Positions 4,685 to 46,730 of a stretch of 64,000 nt of DNA are shown here, one piece after another; within the stretch, counting starts at the first letter, position 1, and each line of letters begins with the position of its first letter. Under the pieces are notes generated by a model. That model was not told where the DNA came from and made no database searches. It was given only the letters and a program-made list of their open reading frames with translations. Both the position numbers and the translations under genes were made by a program. The stretch is from assembly GCF_004519335.1 (NCBI RefSeq), contig NZ_SOZD01000002.1, positions 186,001 through 250,000 of the forward strand. Direction: 5' to 3'. This DNA comes from Jiella endophytica (GTDB lineage: Bacteria > Pseudomonadota > Alphaproteobacteria > Rhizobiales > Rhizobiaceae).

Positions 4685-7030
4685 CTACGCGACGGCGTTG
4701 AGCGCCTTCCAGACCTTTTCCGGCGTCGCCGGCATGGTCAGGTCGTTGTTGCCGATCGCGTCGGTGATGGCGTTGATCACCGCCGGCGGCGAACCGATGG
4801 CGCCGGCCTCGCCGCAGCCCTTCATGCCGAGCGGATTGCCCGGGCAGAGGGTCTCGTTGGTCGACACCTTGAAGTTCGGCAGGTCCCAGGCCCGCGGCAT
4901 GGCGTAGTCCATGTAGGAGGCGGTGAGGAGCTGGCCGGCATCGTCGTAATGGGTGCCTTCGAGCAGCGCCTGGCCGATGCCCTGCGCAAGGCCGCCATGC
5001 ACCTGGCCCTCGACGATCATCGGATTAATCACCCGGCCGAAATCGTCGGCCGCGACGAACTGGATGATCTCGGTCGTCCCGGTCTCGGGGTCCACCTCCA
5101 CCTCGCAGATGTAGCAGCCGGCCGGGAAGGTGAAGTTGGTCGGGTCGTAGAACGCCCCCTCCTTCAGCCCCGGCTCCATGCCGTCCGGCAGGTTGTGGGC
5201 GGTATAGGCGCCGAGGCAGACCTCGTGCCAGCCGAGCTTCTTGTCGGTGCCGGCGACCTTCACCTCGCCATTCTCGATGACGATGTCGCCCTCGTCGGCC
5301 TCGAGCACATGGGCGGCGATCTTCTTCGCCTTGGCCTCGACCTTGTCGAGCGCCTTGACGATCGCCGACATGCCGACCGCGCCGGAGCGCGAGCCGTAGG
5401 TGCCCATACCGAACTGCACCTTGTCGGTATCGCCATGGACGATCTGGACATTGTCGACCGGCAGGCCGAAACGCTCGGCGACGAGCTGGGCGAAGGTCGT
5501 TTCGTGGCCCTGCCCATGGCTGTGCGAACCGGTGAGAATCTCGATCGTGCCGACCGGATTGACCCGCACTTCGGCCGATTCCCACAGGCCGACGCCGGCG
5601 CCGAGGGAGCCGACCGCCTTCGAAGGGGCGATGCCGCAGGCCTCGATGTAGCAGCTCATGCCGAGACCGCGCAGCTTGCCGCGGGATTTCGCCTCCTCGC
5701 GCCGCGCCTCGAAACCGGCGACGTCGGCAGCTTCCATGCCGGCGTTCAGCGTCGCGTCGAAGTCGCCGGCGTCATAGGCCATGATCACCGGCGTCTGATG
5801 CGGGAAGGAGCGGATGAAGTTCTTGCGGCGGAATTCGGCCGGCGAAATGCCGAGCTCGCGCGCCGCCGTCTCCATCGTCCGCTCGACCACATAGGTCGCT
5901 TCCGGCCGGCCTGCGCCGCGATAGGCGTCCACCGGGACGGTGTTGGTGTAGACCGTCTTGACGTTGGCATGAATCGCCGGGATGTCGTACTGGCCCGACA
6001 GAAGCGTCGCATAGAGATAGGTCGGCACCGAAGACGAGAACAGCGACATGTAGGCGCCGAGATTGGCGATCGTCCCGACCCTGAGGCCCAAGATCTTGTT
6101 GTCGGCGTCGAGGGCGAGTTCGACGTCCGTCTCGTGATCGCGGCCATGGGCGTCGGTCAGGAACGCCTCGGAACGGTCCGACGTCCACTTCACCGGGACG
6201 CCGGTGCGCTTGGAGGCCCAAAGGCAGACGATCTCTTCGGGATAGATGTAGATCTTCGAGCCGAAGCCGCCGCCGACATCCGGCGCGATCACCCTCAGCT
6301 TGTGCTCCGGCGCGACGTTGTAGAAGGCGCTCATCACCAGCCGCGCGACATGCGGGTTCTGCGAGGTCGTCCAGCAGGTGTAGTGGTCCTCCGCCGGATC
6401 GTAGTGGCCGAGCGCGGCGCGCGGCTCCATCGGGTTCGGCACGAGGCGGTTGTTGTGAATGTGGATCTTGGTGACGTGGGCGGCCTTCGAGAAGGCCGCG
6501 TCGGTCGCCGCCTTGTCGCCGAGTTCCCAGTCGAAGATCAGGTTGCCCGGCGCTTCGGGATGAAGCTGCGGCGCGCCCTCCTTCAGGGCGTCGACCGCGG
6601 TGGTGACCACCGGCAGTTCCTCATAGTCGACCATCACCGCCTCGGCGGCGTCACGCGCCTGCAGCTGGGTTTCGGCAACGACGATCGCCACGGCCTGGCC
6701 AACATGGCGGACGGTGCCGACGGCGAGCGCCGGCCAGGCGCCCATCTTCATCGGCGTGCCGTCCTTGGAGGAGACCGCCCAGCCGCAGATCAGATTGCCG
6801 ATGCCGTCGCCCTGCAGCTGCTGCCCGTTGAGGATACCGATCACCCCGGGCATGCCCTCGGCGCTGCTCGTGTCGATACCGGTGATCTTGGCATGCGCGT
6901 GCGGCGAACGCACGAAGGCGGCGTATTTCATGCCCGGCACGCTCATGTCGTCGACATAGCGGCCGCGTCCGGTGATGAAGCGGCGATCCTCCTTGCGCAG
7001 GACCTTCGCACCGATACCTTCAACGCCCAT
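4685..7030 (-). CDS. coxL: Molybdopterin-binding large subunit, form II CoxL-like
   Basis: A 781-residue catalytic subunit of the xanthine dehydrogenase/CO dehydrogenase family that binds the molybdenum cytosine dinucleotide cofactor. The cofactor loop GGGFGSK is at 253-259 and a C-terminal GCGEAGAIGSPPAV block carries the conserved glutamate. The active-site signature is AYRGAGR (369-375), the form II version, rather than AYXCSFR which marks true CO dehydrogenase (form I). Gene order S-L-M also matches form II; form I clusters are M-S-L. CO oxidation should therefore not be assumed; an aldehyde, purine or other N-heterocycle is possible. Start ATG 7030 has GGGAGG seven bases upstream; the longer open frame is not needed. 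Confidence 0.9.
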   Translation of the reverse strand: MGVEGIGAKVLRKEDRRFITGRGRYVDDMSVPGMKYAAFVRSPHAHAKITGIDTSSAEGMPGVIGILNGQQLQGDGIGNLICGWAVSSKDGTPMKMGAWPALAVGTVRHVGQAVAIVVAETQLQARDAAEAVMVDYEELPVVTTAVDALKEGAPQLHPEAPGNLIFDWELGDKAATDAAFSKAAHVTKIHIHNNRLVPNPMEPRAALGHYDPAEDHYTCWTTSQNPHVARLVMSAFYNVAPEHKLRVIAPDVGGGFGSKIYIYPEEIVCLWASKRTGVPVKWTSDRSEAFLTDAHGRDHETDVELALDADNKILGLRVGTIANLGAYMSLFSSSVPTYLYATLLSGQYDIPAIHANVKTVYTNTVPVDAYRGAGRPEATYVVERTMETAARELGISPAEFRRKNFIRSFPHQTPVIMAYDAGDFDATLNAGMEAADVAGFEARREEAKSRGKLRGLGMSCYIEACGIAPSKAVGSLGAGVGLWESAEVRVNPVGTIEILTGSHSHGQGHETTFAQLVAERFGLPVDNVQIVHGDTDKVQFGMGTYGSRSGAVGMSAIVKALDKVEAKAKKIAAHVLEADEGDIVIENGEVKVAGTDKKLGWHEVCLGAYTAHNLPDGMEPGLKEGAFYDPTNFTFPAGCYICEVEVDPETGTTEIIQFVAADDFGRVINPMIVEGQVHGGLAQGIGQALLEGTHYDDAGQLLTASYMDYAMPRAWDLPNFKVSTNETLCPGNPLGMKGCGEAGAIGSPPAVINAITDAIGNNDLTMPATPEKVWKALNAVA

Positions 7031-7151
7031 TCTCAAACCTCCCTGAAAACCCGGCCGCATCTCCCATGCGCCAGGGCGCAATCCGGCCGTTTCGAAATCT
7101 CTGCGACGGACCAGGCGCCGCCGCGGTCTCACCACGGCGGCGGCGGCCGCG

Positions 7152-7640
<489 letters not shown>

Positions 7641-8880: not shown

Positions 8881-10830
8881 TTGATCGCAAATGACCGCCT
8901 GCTCGCAATCTGCCTGTCGATTGCCCTGGCGATTTCTCTGGCCTCGCCCGTAGGCGCCTTCGAGATCTTCGGCATGAAGTTCTTCGAGAGCGCCGATTCC
9001 GAGGTCGAGGTCATCGATCCCCTGAACTACGCCGTGACGCTGCAGGTCGAGCCCGCCCCCGACGACGAGGACGGCGCGCTGGAAGAGACGCTGAACGACG
9101 CCTCCGGCCTTGTCAGCGACGAGGAAAAGCCGGTCTCCGGCTCGCTCGGGCTGATCTCCAAGGCCAAGACCGACCGCAAGCGCCTGGTCGCTGCGCTGTT
9201 CGAACAGGCCCGCTATGACGGTCTCGTCGACATCTTCATCGAAGGCCGCGACATCACGACACTGCCGCCGGACGCCAGCTTCTCGGCGCGGCCGGTGCCG
9301 GTGACGATCAAGGTACGGCCGGGATCGAAATACCGCCTCGGCCGGATCGCGGTGTCGACCGGCGGCATCCCGGTCGATCCCGCCGAATACGGCCTCGAAC
9401 AGGGCGGCGACGCCGGCTCGGCCAAGGTCCTCGAAGCCGAGGGCAAGATGTTCAACAAGCTGCGCGAGGACGGCCGGCCCTTCGTCGCCGTCACCCACCG
9501 CGACATCGTCGCCGATGCGGCCGACGACAGACTGGACTACGAGGCCAGCCTCGACCCCGGCCCGCGCGTTCCTTTCGGCGACGTCTGGATCGACGGGGCC
9601 GAGGACGTCGACCCCGGCTTCATCGCCTATATGACGGGCATCAAGGCCGGCGAGGTGTTTTCGCCGAAGGAACTTGCCGAGGCCCGCGCCCGGCTGAACA
9701 AGCTCGGCGTCTTCTCCTCCGTCACCGTCAAGGAAGGCAAGGCGCAGGATCTGGACGGCACGCTTCCCGTGCAGGTCGAGGTCGGCGAGCGCAAGTTCGG
9801 CTACTATGGCGTCGGCGCGACCTATTCGAACACCGAGGGTGCCGGCGCCAACGGCTATGTCGGCTACCGCAACCTGTTCGGTAGGGCCGAGTCGCTCCGC
9901 TTCGACGCCTCGGTCTCGCGCATCGGCGCCACCGCCGTTTCCGGCGAGGCGCGCGAGACAAGCGGCATCGATTATTCGAGCTCGCTGGTGTTCAAGAAGC
10001 CCGGCGTGCTCGGCCCGGACTCGGTCTATATCGGCTCGCTGGAGATCAAGCGCGAACAGCCCCTCGCCTATGACCGCACCAGCTACGCCGCGACCAGCGG
10101 CGTCGAATACGACATCGACGAGCAGCAGAAGCTCAACGTCACGCTGCGGGCGGAATATGAGGAGATCACCGACTTTCTCGGCGATCGTGACTATTTCATC
10201 ACCTCGGTGCCGATCACCTATACCTATGACGGGCGCGACAACGAGCTGAACCCCACCGACGGCTTCTATTTCCAGGCGCTGGCCGAGCCCTCCTACGGCT
10301 TCAACACCTCCACCGCCTTCCTGAAGACCCGGCTCGACGGAAGGGCCTATCTCTCGCTGCTCGAAAGCGACCGGCTGATCTTTGCAAGCCGCCTCGGCTA
10401 CGGCACGATCTTCGGCGCCGACCTCCTCGACATCCCCAACGACCGCCGTTTCTACGCCGGTGGCGGCGGCTCGGTCCGCGGCTACGAGTTCCAGTCGATC
10501 GGCCCGTATTTCCCAGGCTCGGTGCCGCCGGGTTCCGGCTTCAATTCCGACTTCGTCGACACCCCGACCGGCGGCCTGTCGCTGTTCGACGGCTCGGTCG
10601 AGGCCCGTATCGGCATCACCGAGAACATCCAGATCGTGCCCTTCCTCGATTTCGGCACGGTGTCCGACGAGCTCGTGCCGGACTTTTCGACCTTCAAGCT
10701 CGGCGCCGGCGTCGGCGCCCGCTATCTTACCAGCTTCGGCCCGATCCGCGTCGACGTCGGCATCCCCCTCGATCCGGGACCGCGGGACGCGAGCTACCAG
10801 ATCTATGCCGGTATCGGACAGGCCTTCTGA
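8881..10830 (+). CDS. tamA: Translocation and assembly module outer-membrane protein TamA
   Basis: About 649 residues of an Omp85-family outer-membrane protein: signal peptide (NDRLLAICLSIALAISLASP then VGA), POTRA region to roughly residue 330 (PVTIKVRPGSKYRLGRIAVS; RVPFGDVWIDGAEDVDPGFI), then the 16-strand barrel ending in IYAGIGQAF with terminal Phe. The barrel shows the Omp85 motif GGGGSVRGYEFQSIGP. TamA works with TamB in envelope protein or lipid transport. The start is uncertain: TTG 8881 is preceded by AGGGG ten bases upstream and places the signal peptide correctly; there is no in-frame ATG between it and 8662. The stop overlaps the tamB start by one base. Confidence 0.9.
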   Translation: MIANDRLLAICLSIALAISLASPVGAFEIFGMKFFESADSEVEVIDPLNYAVTLQVEPAPDDEDGALEETLNDASGLVSDEEKPVSGSLGLISKAKTDRKRLVAALFEQARYDGLVDIFIEGRDITTLPPDASFSARPVPVTIKVRPGSKYRLGRIAVSTGGIPVDPAEYGLEQGGDAGSAKVLEAEGKMFNKLREDGRPFVAVTHRDIVADAADDRLDYEASLDPGPRVPFGDVWIDGAEDVDPGFIAYMTGIKAGEVFSPKELAEARARLNKLGVFSSVTVKEGKAQDLDGTLPVQVEVGERKFGYYGVGATYSNTEGAGANGYVGYRNLFGRAESLRFDASVSRIGATAVSGEARETSGIDYSSSLVFKKPGVLGPDSVYIGSLEIKREQPLAYDRTSYAATSGVEYDIDEQQKLNVTLRAEYEEITDFLGDRDYFITSVPITYTYDGRDNELNPTDGFYFQALAEPSYGFNTSTAFLKTRLDGRAYLSLLESDRLIFASRLGYGTIFGADLLDIPNDRRFYAGGGGSVRGYEFQSIGPYFPGSVPPGSGFNSDFVDTPTGGLSLFDGSVEARIGITENIQIVPFLDFGTVSDELVPDFSTFKLGAGVGARYLTSFGPIRVDVGIPLDPGPRDASYQIYAGIGQAF

Positions 10831-43414: not shown

Positions 43415-44251
43415 TCATACGCCCGGCAGGACGATCACCGTCGGCCGGTCCGGCAACGTCGTCACCGACACAGTGAAGCTGTCCTCGCTGCGCCATTCGA
43501 CGGCGAAATCCGGAACCTTGGCGAGAAAGCGGTCGATCGGTCCGCGAAAGCGGTGCATGGGCAGGATGATCCGCGACTGCAACCGCTCAGCGATCTCGCC
43601 CATGCCTTCCTGGCTCATCGTCATGCCGCCGTCGACCGGCACCATGAGAATGTCCAGCCGGCCGATCTCGGCATAGTCCTCGTCGGTCAGCCGGTGATGC
43701 AGATGGCCGAGATGGCCGATGCACAAGCCCGCCACTTCGAAGATGAAGATCGAATTGCCGTCAGGCTCCAGCGCCCCGCCCCAGGAGCGGATGTCGGTGG
43801 TGACATTGCGGACATACATGTCGCCGAGGCTGAGCGCGTGGCGGGCCGGGCCGTCGCCGTCGGGGTTCCAGCCTCTGAGGACATGGGCGATCGCCGGGTC
43901 CGGATAGGGCGTGTTGTGGGAGGAATGCGCCTTGTTCATCGTCACGATGTCCGGCAGCACCGGCCCGGCATAGCCGGAAAAGTCGGTGGCGGCGCGGATC
44001 CCTGCCGGGCTTTCGATCAGGAAGGTGGCGTGGGTCACATAAGTGATCCTGACGTCGCGGTCGGCTGTCCGGCCCTGGAAGAGACCGCGGTCGTTCGGCG
44101 AGGCCTGGGCATAGGTGACCTCCGGCACGAGACTGGCGATCGCCCGGCACTGGCTCGGCCGCTCCCCCGGCCCGGCGCTCTGGGCGATGGCCAGTTGACC
44201 GGAGGCAAGCAGCAGCAGGAGGGCAAGCAGCCCCGCGAGACGATGGCGCAA
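43415..44251 (-). CDS. Exported MBL-fold hydrolase-like protein
   Basis: A 278-residue protein with signal peptide (residues 1-23, LLALLLLLASGQLAIAQ). The fold is of the metallo-beta-lactamase superfamily (ITYVTHATFLIESPAGIRAA; FEVAGLCIGHLGHLHHRLTD; LDILMVPVDGGMTM; ILPMHRFRGPIDRFL). The usual HxHxDH is replaced by an AHSSHN-type sequence, so one metal site may be altered. Start TTG 44251 is chosen because AGGAGGTG lies six bases upstream and no ATG is near. Substrate unknown. Confidence 0.8.
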   Translation of the reverse strand: MRHRLAGLLALLLLLASGQLAIAQSAGPGERPSQCRAIASLVPEVTYAQASPNDRGLFQGRTADRDVRITYVTHATFLIESPAGIRAATDFSGYAGPVLPDIVTMNKAHSSHNTPYPDPAIAHVLRGWNPDGDGPARHALSLGDMYVRNVTTDIRSWGGALEPDGNSIFIFEVAGLCIGHLGHLHHRLTDEDYAEIGRLDILMVPVDGGMTMSQEGMGEIAERLQSRIILPMHRFRGPIDRFLAKVPDFAVEWRSEDSFTVSVTTLPDRPTVIVLPGV

Positions 44252-44476: not shown

Positions 44477-45094
44477 TCAAAGGTCGATGCCAGGCCTTGG
44501 CGCGTCCCGCTTCGGGTCCTCTGCAATGAGACCGCGTTCCTTCAGGAAGGGGTTGATGGCCACCGCCTCGCGCAGCTGCTTCTGGGCGAGGCGGTGACGG
44601 CCCTGGCGCATGAGGATCAGGGCGCGGCCTGCCATCGCCGCGAAATGTCGCGGCTCAAGGGCGATCGCCCGGTCGACGTCTTCCAGCGCGGCGTCGTAGT
44701 CGTCCTGCAGAAACAGAACGAAGCCGCGCTGGTTGTAGACCTCGGCATAGGCCGGCGCACCGGCCGCCGCCTCGTCGAGAAGCGCCTTCGCCCCGGCAAA
44801 GTCGTAGACGCGGCGCTTTTCCATGGCTCTTCTGACGAGATCTTCCGTCCGGCGGTCCGGCGCATGCATCCACAAACGCCAGATCCTGTCCTCGATCACC
44901 CTCGCACTCGCCTCGTCAGGCGCGGCCTTCAGCGCATCGAACAGCGGATCGAGGCCCCGCATCGCCGGGCCGGCCTCACCATCCCCTGCACTCGCAGCGA
45001 AGGCCTTCGCCGGAATCCATGCGACCGGGAGGGCGGCCGCGAAGAGCATGGCAGCGGCAAGAAGCCGGAATGCACGCATCCTTGCGAAGATCAT
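44477..45094 (-). CDS. Exported tetratricopeptide-repeat protein
   Basis: A 205-residue protein with a signal peptide (about residues 1-33, ending AKAFA). From about residue 95 to 185 there are TPR-like helices (YDFAGAKALLDEAAAGAPAY, AEVYNQRGFVLFLQDDYDAA, LEDVDRAIALEPRHFAAMAG, RALILMRQGRHRLAQKQLRE). TPRs mediate protein contacts. It is divergent from the BLUF gene with 135 bp between. Role unknown. Confidence 0.85.
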   Translation of the reverse strand: MIFARMRAFRLLAAAMLFAAALPVAWIPAKAFAASAGDGEAGPAMRGLDPLFDALKAAPDEASARVIEDRIWRLWMHAPDRRTEDLVRRAMEKRRVYDFAGAKALLDEAAAGAPAYAEVYNQRGFVLFLQDDYDAALEDVDRAIALEPRHFAAMAGRALILMRQGRHRLAQKQLREAVAINPFLKERGLIAEDPKRDAPRPGIDL

Positions 45095-45229
45095 TGCAAC
45101 GCCTCCCCGCTTGCGCCGTTTGGGTCACCGAGTGGGAGCAGTTGGCGCCCCGGACGCAAAGTCATATTGTCGTTACAGGCCGGGCTGACGATCGCACCCG
45201 ACGTCTTGCGGCCAATCAGGAGTGCGGCC

Positions 45230-45637
45230 ATGACGATCTACCGCCTCGCCTTTGTCTCCCGCCCGGCGCCCGGCATCACCGCCGCCGAGATCTCGGCCAT
45301 CGGCGAGAGCTCGGCGCGGCACAATCTGGAACTCGGCGTCACCGGCATGCTGATCCACGAGTTCAACCGCTTCATCGCGCTGCTGGAAGGCCCGCTCGCG
45401 GGAATCGAGCAGCTGATGGTCGCGATCATCGCCGACGGCCGCCATTCCGGCATCCGCATCTTCCTGCAGCAGAGCGCCGAGGCACGCAGCCTGTCCCGCT
45501 GGATCATGTGGTCGGATTTCGACCGCATGACGATGAGCGCCGGCGAGCTCGAAGTGCGTGAGGAGATCGTCAGGGCAGCACTCGCCAGCCTCGCGGAAAT
45601 CGACGCCGAACGGCATGACGGCGCGGCGGCCTCCTGA
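45230..45637 (+). CDS. BLUF-domain protein lacking photoactive Tyr and Gln
   Basis: A 135-residue single-domain BLUF protein (residues 1-95) with a helical C-terminal cap. BLUF domains sense blue light through FAD, using a Tyr, an Asn and a Gln. By direct alignment with cyanobacterial Slr1694/PixD, whose key residues are Y8, N32 and Q50, this protein has the same spacing but F8 (YRLAFVS), N32 (RHNLELGVTG) and A50 (FIALLEG). Flavin-binding framework residues remain, but both photochemical partners are replaced. It may bind flavin without light response, or act as a redox or structural module. ATG 45230 has AGGAG eight bases upstream. No effector domain is attached. Confidence 0.85.
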   Translation: MTIYRLAFVSRPAPGITAAEISAIGESSARHNLELGVTGMLIHEFNRFIALLEGPLAGIEQLMVAIIADGRHSGIRIFLQQSAEARSLSRWIMWSDFDRMTMSAGELEVREEIVRAALASLAEIDAERHDGAAAS

Positions 45638-45671
45638 CCGCACGCGACGCCGTCAGCTTCGACAGATGCCT

Positions 45672-46730
45672 TCACGTCCGCTTGGAGCCGGCGGCGATCT
45701 CCCGAGACCGCACAATGCGGTAGATCTCGCCCGCTTCTTCGATGAGATCGCCATGGGCGGCGAGAGCCTCGTCGATCTCCTCCTGCGGCACGAGACTGTT
45801 GCGGTCCCTCGTGACGTTGTGCCGGGCGATCTCGTCCGGACCGATCCTCAGAAGCGCCCTGTTGCGGGCGAGAAAGCCGGGCATGCCGTCGACCGTCCCC
45901 GCCGCGACCCTGTCGAGGGCCGCGGCGAGACGCGAGGCCGGCGCCGGCCCGGAAATCCCTGCGACGAACCGGTTCTGCATGAACAGTGCGGACCGCCCGT
46001 AGGGCATCTCGATGAACTCTTTCAGCGTCTTTTCGCGCAAGAGGTTCATCCCGGGCGCCCGGCTCCGGGAGCCTACCCGGCGCGCGTGGCCCGCGGCCGA
46101 GGCCAGCCGGGAAAGCGGCTCGCGCAGCAGCGTCGCGAAATTCGCACCGGGCATCGCCTTCTTCGCGACATCGTAGGTGAAATGCCCGGCGACGAAATCG
46201 TAAGCCGGCAGATGCTCGGTGGCGGATTTCAGCTCGGCATGGGAGCCGAGCAGCAGCGAGCGATGGAAATGTCCCCGGGCAGCCTCGTAGATCGACGTGC
46301 CGGCGGTCTTCGGAATATGGATGAACACCGTGCGGCCGCCGGAGAAGCGCCCGGACGCGATGTCACCGAGATAGGTCTTCAGCGGCTGGAGGGCGCGCTG
46401 GTTTCCGAGCCAGGCCAGCGGCGACCTCAGCCCGCCAAGGCGGGGTGCCGGCTGCCACCGGTCGACGAGGAGAACGAAGACCGCGTTCTGGAAGACCGGC
46501 TCCCATTCGGCCAACTCCGTCAGGCGCGAAAGCGGAAATCCATGCATCATGCCCTTGTGCAGCAGCACAGCCTCGGCCGGTTCACCGTAGGGCACGCCGT
46601 GCCCGAGGGCGCGCCTCAGCTCTTGAGGCAGCGAGACGGACAGGCTACCGAACCGCTCGGTCAGTTCCTCCACCGCCTCGCGGGCCTCTTTCCACAGGGG
46701 ATCGAACGTCGGAGAAGGATCCTGCGTCAA
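45672..46730 (-). CDS. Sulfotransferase family 2-like protein
   Basis: A 352-residue PAPS-dependent sulfotransferase. The 5'-phosphosulfate loop is TVFIHIPKTAGTSIYEAA near residue 133, and the 3'-phosphate loop is LLREPLSRLAS near residue 201. About 130 residues precede the catalytic domain, longer than the minimal family. It probably sulfates a carbohydrate. It is divergent from a polysaccharide pyruvyl transferase gene, 134 bp apart, suggesting a pair that decorates a surface polysaccharide. Confidence 0.85.
   Translation of the reverse strand: MTQDPSPTFDPLWKEAREAVEELTERFGSLSVSLPQELRRALGHGVPYGEPAEAVLLHKGMMHGFPLSRLTELAEWEPVFQNAVFVLLVDRWQPAPRLGGLRSPLAWLGNQRALQPLKTYLGDIASGRFSGGRTVFIHIPKTAGTSIYEAARGHFHRSLLLGSHAELKSATEHLPAYDFVAGHFTYDVAKKAMPGANFATLLREPLSRLASAAGHARRVGSRSRAPGMNLLREKTLKEFIEMPYGRSALFMQNRFVAGISGPAPASRLAAALDRVAAGTVDGMPGFLARNRALLRIGPDEIARHNVTRDRNSLVPQEEIDEALAAHGDLIEEAGEIYRIVRSREIAAGSKRT

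Follow-up and report, generated by a model that had tools for sequence, protein, structure and literature searches.

The window analysed here, a stretch of 64,000 nucleotides from Jiella endophytica, carries at 45230-45637 on the plus strand a reading frame that translates into a complete protein of 135 residues, referred to below as P0001. The frame is open, with neither a stop nor a frameshift, its ATG is the start used by the orthologues, and an AGGAG found by inspection at 45218..45222 (+) is the likely ribosome-binding site. A Pfam profile search matched residues 4-93 to the BLUF family (PF04940) with 69.7 bits, the curated cut-off being 25 bits. In a phmmer comparison, residues 1-94 were paired with residues 1-94 of PixD/Slr1694 (3mzi; E 2.6e-8), so PixD numbering can be applied to P0001, for whose N-terminal 54 residues a preliminary description of the sequence had given an ungapped alignment to this protein. 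The predicted structure follows the strand and helix order of the BLUF alpha/beta fold (pLDDT 65.1, TM about 0.5), and the first 34 PDB matches to this model were all BLUF structures (E 6.3e-5 to 9.5e-4); a pLDDT of 65 means middling confidence, and the geometry of the pocket was left unread. Judged by homology, P0001 belongs to the BLUF domain family. PixD/Slr1694 and Tll0078, which were among the best fold matches, share with it a short single BLUF domain and a C-terminal helical tail, whereas they have Tyr8 and Gln50 in place of Phe and Ala and are only about 30% identical to it over the aligned core.

The flavin-pocket residues Asn32, Arg71, His72, Trp91 and Met93 are all present in the alignment. 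The conserved Tyr-Gln pair (Tyr8, Gln50) is missing, and Phe8 and Ala50 stand in its place. As the preliminary description had stated, both photocycle residues are replaced, with Asn32 kept, in a single-domain protein that is intact in other respects; the codons and the alignment bear this out. Considered as a BLUF photoreceptor, P0001 thus lacks, by its sequence, the very feature that makes the photocycle. Roles in the flavin pocket of BLUF domains have been described for Asn32, Trp91 and Met93 (PMC5899715).

On the minus strand upstream lie genes for a metallo-beta-lactamase-fold protein (43415..44251) and a TPR protein (44477..45094), both assigned by Pfam and both syntenic neighbours. On the other side, 45672..46730 (-) has no Pfam match; it is a neighbour in part of the genus, and we take it to be sulfotransferase-like from its HIPKTAGTS motif. 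A genus search found the BLUF gene in 10/10 Jiella genomes, and 8/11 named relatives (L049-L055, L057) retain the succession metallo-beta-lactamase-fold protein, TPR protein, BLUF; the TPR match is missing beside the BLUF gene in L058 and L059, and both neighbours are missing in L056. Such presence and gene order indicate one and the same gene at a conserved location, which is more than chance would give. No partner gene of P0001 was identified among the neighbouring genes inspected. Among relatives of P0001 sought in viral contigs, six stretches fitted a pattern and none was confirmed, and a plasmid search with P0001 gave one weak match. A further gene, presumably of GFA type from its GGCQCG motif, lies after the BLUF gene, on the other strand, in 9/11 named relatives (partly visible in L058); it spans about 6420-7350 of the stretches L049-L059, and the corresponding gap in the window is 45637-45672. 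It is missing after the BLUF gene in the window and in L053 and L055, and a search of the window's own genome returned distant copies only (5 matches, 28-35% identity). The idea that this neighbour was lost along with the photoswitch was rejected, since L053 and L055 are also without the gene and keep Tyr and Gln.

Scanning of named genome contigs yielded 11 named orthologues with 44-77% identity, namely those of J. mangrovi, J. pacifica, J. pelagia, J. avicenniae, J. sonneratiae, J. flava, Jiella sp. LLJ827, 'Aurantimonas' 22II-16-19i, a 'Fulvimarina' MAG, F. endophytica and F. pelagi. All 11 keep Tyr8 and Gln50; the J. mangrovi protein is 76% identical to P0001. For codon comparisons, 12 orthologues were used, nine from Jiella congeners and three (G027, G124, G022) from other genera. 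Codon 8 (45251..45253, +) is TTT for Phe in the window and TAT for Tyr in 12/12 orthologues; codon 50 (45377..45379, +) is GCG for Ala here and CAG for Gln in 12/12, a difference of two base changes. Conservation of F8/A50 in close homologues, which the preliminary description had proposed to look for, is therefore not found, and on the sequences at hand both replacements are private to one species, represented by one genome, among the genomes compared. The Jiella and Fulvimarina orthologues sit at the same locus in most cases and, having kept Tyr8/Gln50, would be expected to be ordinary photoreceptors, in contrast to P0001 with Phe8/Ala50.

A single genome of the species, with a completeness of 97.15 and a contamination of 3.27, leaves room for the thought that the replacements are sequencing or assembly errors. 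This would take base errors at three separate places, confined to the two codons of the photoswitch pair and leaving the frame intact, within a 1.07-Mb contig, and Phe8 BLUFs are also encoded on complete named Azospirillum replicons; an error is extremely improbable.

P0001 departs from the other 12 orthologues at 3 of the 34 columns that are invariant among them, through Y8F, A28S and Q50A. Codon 28 (45311..45313, +) is TCG for Ser, with Ala in 12/12 orthologues; PixD and AppA numbering differ by 13 (Tyr8/Gln50 = Tyr21/Gln63), so this is the position of AppA Ser41. Nearby, codon 31 (45320..45322, +) is CAC for His, with Arg in 11/12 orthologues and Asn in the remaining one. The number of private changes was rejected as a distinguishing mark: leave-one-out counts for the other orthologues range from 0 to 5 each, and within the genus alone P0001 has 5 and G157 has 9. 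In this alignment it is the place of the changes, rather than their number, that marks P0001 out. At sites conserved in at least 8 of 9 congeners, it departs at 6/33 in residues 1-57, 0/22 in residues 58-94 and 1/22 in residues 95-128, so that six of the seven departures lie in residues 1-57 and 1/44 sites is changed in 58-128. The part from Trp91 through the C-terminal helix (residues 91-128; 45500..45613, +), the presumed output half, is near the genus consensus. Read from the alignment, the input end is altered and the output end is kept.

To place these replacements within the family, BLUF domains were gathered from searches of the window's own genome, its family, genus, named contigs, class and phylum, and from fetched stretches. 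A first count covered 200 distinct matches (among them all the class-level matches listed, and 29 new loci plus 40 chosen stretches from the phylum matches listed) and is weighted towards high scorers and the family to which the window belongs. Tyr stands at position 8 in 191 of these matches and Phe in 3, while 6 have no residue there (Phe in 3/194). The three Phe8 proteins were P0001, a fusion of a receiver domain, so named by us from sequence features, to a BLUF domain in G208 (F8/E50), and a protein of G440 (F8/Q50, D32). The last of these (L200) combines Phe8, Asp32 and Val93 with a kept Gln50. The genus of G208 turned out to contain further Phe8 proteins, and close matches on complete replicons of Azospirillum oryzae and A. 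ramasamyi suggest that this genus is Azospirillum. In the final set, both positions were present in 245 of 253 distinct matches, with Y/Q in 228, F/Q in 7, F/E in 4, F/V in 3, F/T in 2 and F/A in 1; the Azospirillum proteins were fetched with a Phe8/Glu50 query, so 17/245 is no base rate. Among the eight matches dropped, L077 consists of two pieces of one interrupted gene with Tyr8 and Gln50, L106 and L109 keep Gln50 and leave position 8 uncovered, L201 has Tyr8 and Gln50 in a gene cut by a contig end, and L202-L204 are matches below the cut-off that look unrelated. L077, L106 and L109 (G239, G352, G237) are broken by TAA in the genome search and are possibly broken genes.

Gln50 is missing in 10/17 Phe8 BLUF domains vs 0/228 with Tyr8 (Fisher p = 1e-13, a value that ignores relatedness). 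On a tree built leaving out columns 8 and 50, parsimony placed four changes, losses of Tyr, at position 8 and five changes at position 50. The Phe8 proteins fall into four groups: the Jiella protein, the G440 protein, a pair of receiver-BLUF proteins (support 0.993) and an Azospirillum clade of 13 members (0.838). Phe8 lineages account for 4.7% of the tree length and contain 10/10 of the non-Gln proteins, with five parsimony changes, an argument that is fairer than the Fisher test but rough. That none of the 228 Tyr8 proteins has lost Gln50 suggests that this residue is held by its work with the tyrosine and not by the fold. The rest of the pocket is largely retained in the 17 Phe8 proteins, with Trp91 in 17/17 and Met93 and Asn32 in 16/17. 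In this sample, Tyr-less BLUFs are uncommon and recurrent, one lineage has maintained them across many species, and the pattern suggests that BLUF sensors devoid of the photoswitch arose several times in nature.

The survey also bears on whether P0001 might be a light sensor of another kind, with the switching role passed to Trp91 or to Ser28 and His31 together. A28S and R31H appeared alongside the loss of the Tyr-Gln pair, AppA Ser41 influences both the ground-state spectra and the activity in the dark, and small light responses persist in some variants that lack Tyr or Gln (both PMC4630285). Yet Ser28 is as common with Tyr8 (127/228) as with Phe8 (9/17), for which reason A28S was also rejected as a general companion of Tyr loss. 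Such a modified photocycle is very improbable.

The Azospirillum proteins show that such a state can be kept. The 13-member clade (L223, L229, L232, L238, L239, L242, L251-L255, L267, L269) has Phe8 throughout and, at position 50, any of Q, E, T and V. Its omega is 0.124 (13 sequences, 90 codons), and a model with omega=1 is worse by 217 log units, which points to purifying selection and indicates that Tyr-less BLUFs can be kept long. Named copies lie on complete replicons, on plasmids of A. oryzae (L270, F8/T50) and A. ramasamyi (L271, F8/Q50). In L214, L215 and L119 (Azospirillum G208 and G933), a receiver-like domain is fused to a Phe8/Glu50 BLUF, and the receiver-BLUF proteins of two Azospirillum species are 73% identical; by sequence comparison, this is a Tyr/Gln-less BLUF kept across speciation. 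A search of 82 genomes of its family gave 30 loci and 11 weak matches without loci; among the 30 loci, no Phe8 protein was found outside Azospirillum.

A PF04940 search of the J. endophytica genome returned three BLUF places, that of the window and two on contig C9, at G000:C9:4664-4951 (L001) and 9108-9371 (L002). Both of the latter have Tyr and Gln, so two further genes answer the question of the preliminary description about a second, canonical BLUF gene, and blue light may be sensed in this species by other receptors. L001 sits just after a gene that we take to be GGDEF-EAL-like from its motifs.

With two such receptors at hand, light input through P0001 may have become dispensable, and its altered pocket could be the mark of a recent loss of photoreception, in early decay or drift. 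The private nature of Y8F/Q50A, the Phe8 codon TTT, which is one step from TAT and is the rarer Phe codon (20/136 in ten neighbouring window genes), and the variation of position 50 (Q, E, T, V) after Tyr loss in Azospirillum are in keeping with this. However, P0001 has no stop, frameshift or excess of changes elsewhere, codon 50 needed two base changes, and the Azospirillum clade shows that proteins of this type can be kept. A codon model with the 10 genus sequences and G027 gave a branch omega of 0.113 for P0001 vs 0.103 elsewhere (lnL -2597.52 for two ratios, -2597.54 for one). Omega=1 on this branch was rejected at a cost of 8.4 log units (lnL -2605.95 vs -2597.52), and the branch value falls to 0.074 once codons 8, 28, 31 and 50 are excluded, so that it is low even without the pocket codons. 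Long-standing decay of the gene is thus disfavoured. The branch mixes the time before and after the replacements, so its average is compatible with a recent loss of the switch and would miss it; likewise, no stops, frameshifts or relaxed dN/dS mark P0001 as a pseudogene, signs that a very recent loss would escape. On balance, recent loss is quite unlikely. The preliminary description had named Tyr8/Gln50 in close relatives together with decay of this copy as speaking against its view; the former is found in 12/12 and the latter was not detected. That description is thus supported in part: its proposal of selection for a non-photic role gains no support from the branch dN/dS, which equals the background and cannot date the loss.

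The reading that we prefer, with a probability of about 0.45 for the whole of it, is that P0001, the Jiella orthologue of a PixD-like stand-alone BLUF photoreceptor, may be a light-uncoupled, constitutive flavoprotein regulator that is most likely lit-like. P0001 is real, orthologous and part of a repeated pattern, with replacements that are private among the genomes compared, no visible decay and other Tyr/Gln BLUFs in the same genome; its function we infer. The lineage of one species would have lost the photoswitch through Y8F and Q50A, accompanied by A28S; the signature of the family fold, the residues in contact with the flavin, Trp91/Met93 and the C-terminal output helix were apparently retained. 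P0001 would therefore still fold and bind flavin, could not run the Tyr-Gln hydrogen-bond switch, so that the photocycle would be lost, and would show a putative partner one fixed surface, most likely the lit-like one. Regulation would then be constitutive and uncoupled from light.

This reading is favoured by published mutants that are locked in lit-like states. PixD Y8F is locked in the light-signalling conformation (PMC5899715), and its crystal structure 3mzi bears the title 'pseudo-Signaling State'. According to work cited in PMC6695109, Slr1694 Q50A and AppA Q63E are fixed in pseudo-lit states; the AppA Q63E work also appears, by title, in the reference list of PMC4780082. The replacements of the laboratory proteins PixD Y8F (3mzi, 8i98), Slr1694 Q50A and AppA Q63E occur naturally here as F8 and A50, and the Azospirillum receiver-BLUF proteins, with F8 and E50, combine those of PixD Y8F and AppA Q63E. 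Unlike the laboratory mutants, the natural Phe8 proteins have evolved, can carry two replacements at once and have another backbone. No published protein with F8 and A50 together was found in the literature looked through. Against a lit-like state stands the BlsA Y7A/Q51A double mutant, which did not reproduce the lit-like phenotype of Q51A and in which light raised motility; moreover, BlsA Y7A, Q51A and the double mutant were insoluble in E. coli (PMC6695109). It is also reported that Gln removal prevents formation of the signalling state (PMC3915823), a statement that sits uneasily beside a locked lit state. According to the same paper, the photoswitch no longer works once Tyr or Gln is taken away (PMC3915823). 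The term light-blind used in the preliminary description is likely to be right but too strong: Tyr-less BLUF mutants can undergo photoreduction, and one of them goes on regulating its enzyme, with the sign reversed (PMC4682037).

Photoreduction leads to another explanation, that P0001 senses the redox state or the photoreduction of its flavin. In the absence of Tyr8, this flavin would stop its fast cycling and be reduced to the semiquinone or hydroquinone by a cellular reductant or by light, with Trp91 as the donor, and its redox state would set the output, as in Cys-less LOV-like proteins. Trp91 is kept in P0001 as in every Phe8 BLUF of the survey. OaPAC Y6F is photoinactive and yet is photoreduced to FADH-, its remaining donor being Trp90, and bPAC Y7F yields the neutral semiquinone (both PMC9486806), while Trp-driven radical chemistry has been described in Tyr-to-Phe mutants of AppA, OaPAC and PixD (PMC10799861). 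The bPAC Y7F semiquinone controls the cyclase with the opposite sign, and natural LOV-like proteins that have no adduct cysteine are responsive to reduction (PMC4682037). For Slr1694 Q50A, a short-lived neutral semiquinone is mentioned as unpublished data cited in PMC3915823. However, a role in proton transfer to the flavin has been proposed for the group that Q50A takes away (PMC3915823, PMC10799861), the sequence itself holds no pointer to redox sensing, and no obvious redox partner gene adjoins among the neighbours inspected. Cys-less LOV-like proteins (for example BAT-LOV) are like P0001 in having lost the photocycle residue and kept the rest of a flavin photoreceptor, but they differ in fold and chemistry, and the redox response is shown for the LOV-like proteins only (PMC4682037). 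Redox sensing by P0001 is unlikely.

The light-uncoupled reading of P0001 can be extended to the family. There is perhaps an even chance that Tyr-less BLUFs form a natural class of flavin regulators uncoupled from light that arises repeatedly, a counterpart of Cys-less LOV, a judgement that takes in three further propositions jointly: that the tyrosine is lost before the glutamine or at the same time, leaving position 50 free to vary (Q, E, T, V, A); that evolution reaches the lit-locked replacements of the laboratory, F8, A50 and E50; and that the Jiella protein is the case in which every sister species examined retains the ordinary photoreceptor. Among the open-access literature matches listed, covered by titles and the starts of abstracts, no report of natural Tyr-less BLUFs was found, other journals being outside this scope, and the Cys-less LOV protein is the closest published idea found (PMC4682037). 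A large BLUF survey used a pattern that starts at Tyr and ends at Gln (PMC4844311); since both residues are needed, it would pass over Tyr-less BLUFs. BLUF signalling is debated with regard to the nature of the signalling state and to whether radical intermediates alone can signal (PMC4630285). Natural Tyr-Gln-less BLUFs, one of them beside twelve Tyr/Gln orthologues, allow such questions to be tested in evolved rather than damaged backbones. They are also a warning to annotators: the A. oryzae and A. ramasamyi copies are annotated as 'BLUF domain-containing protein'.
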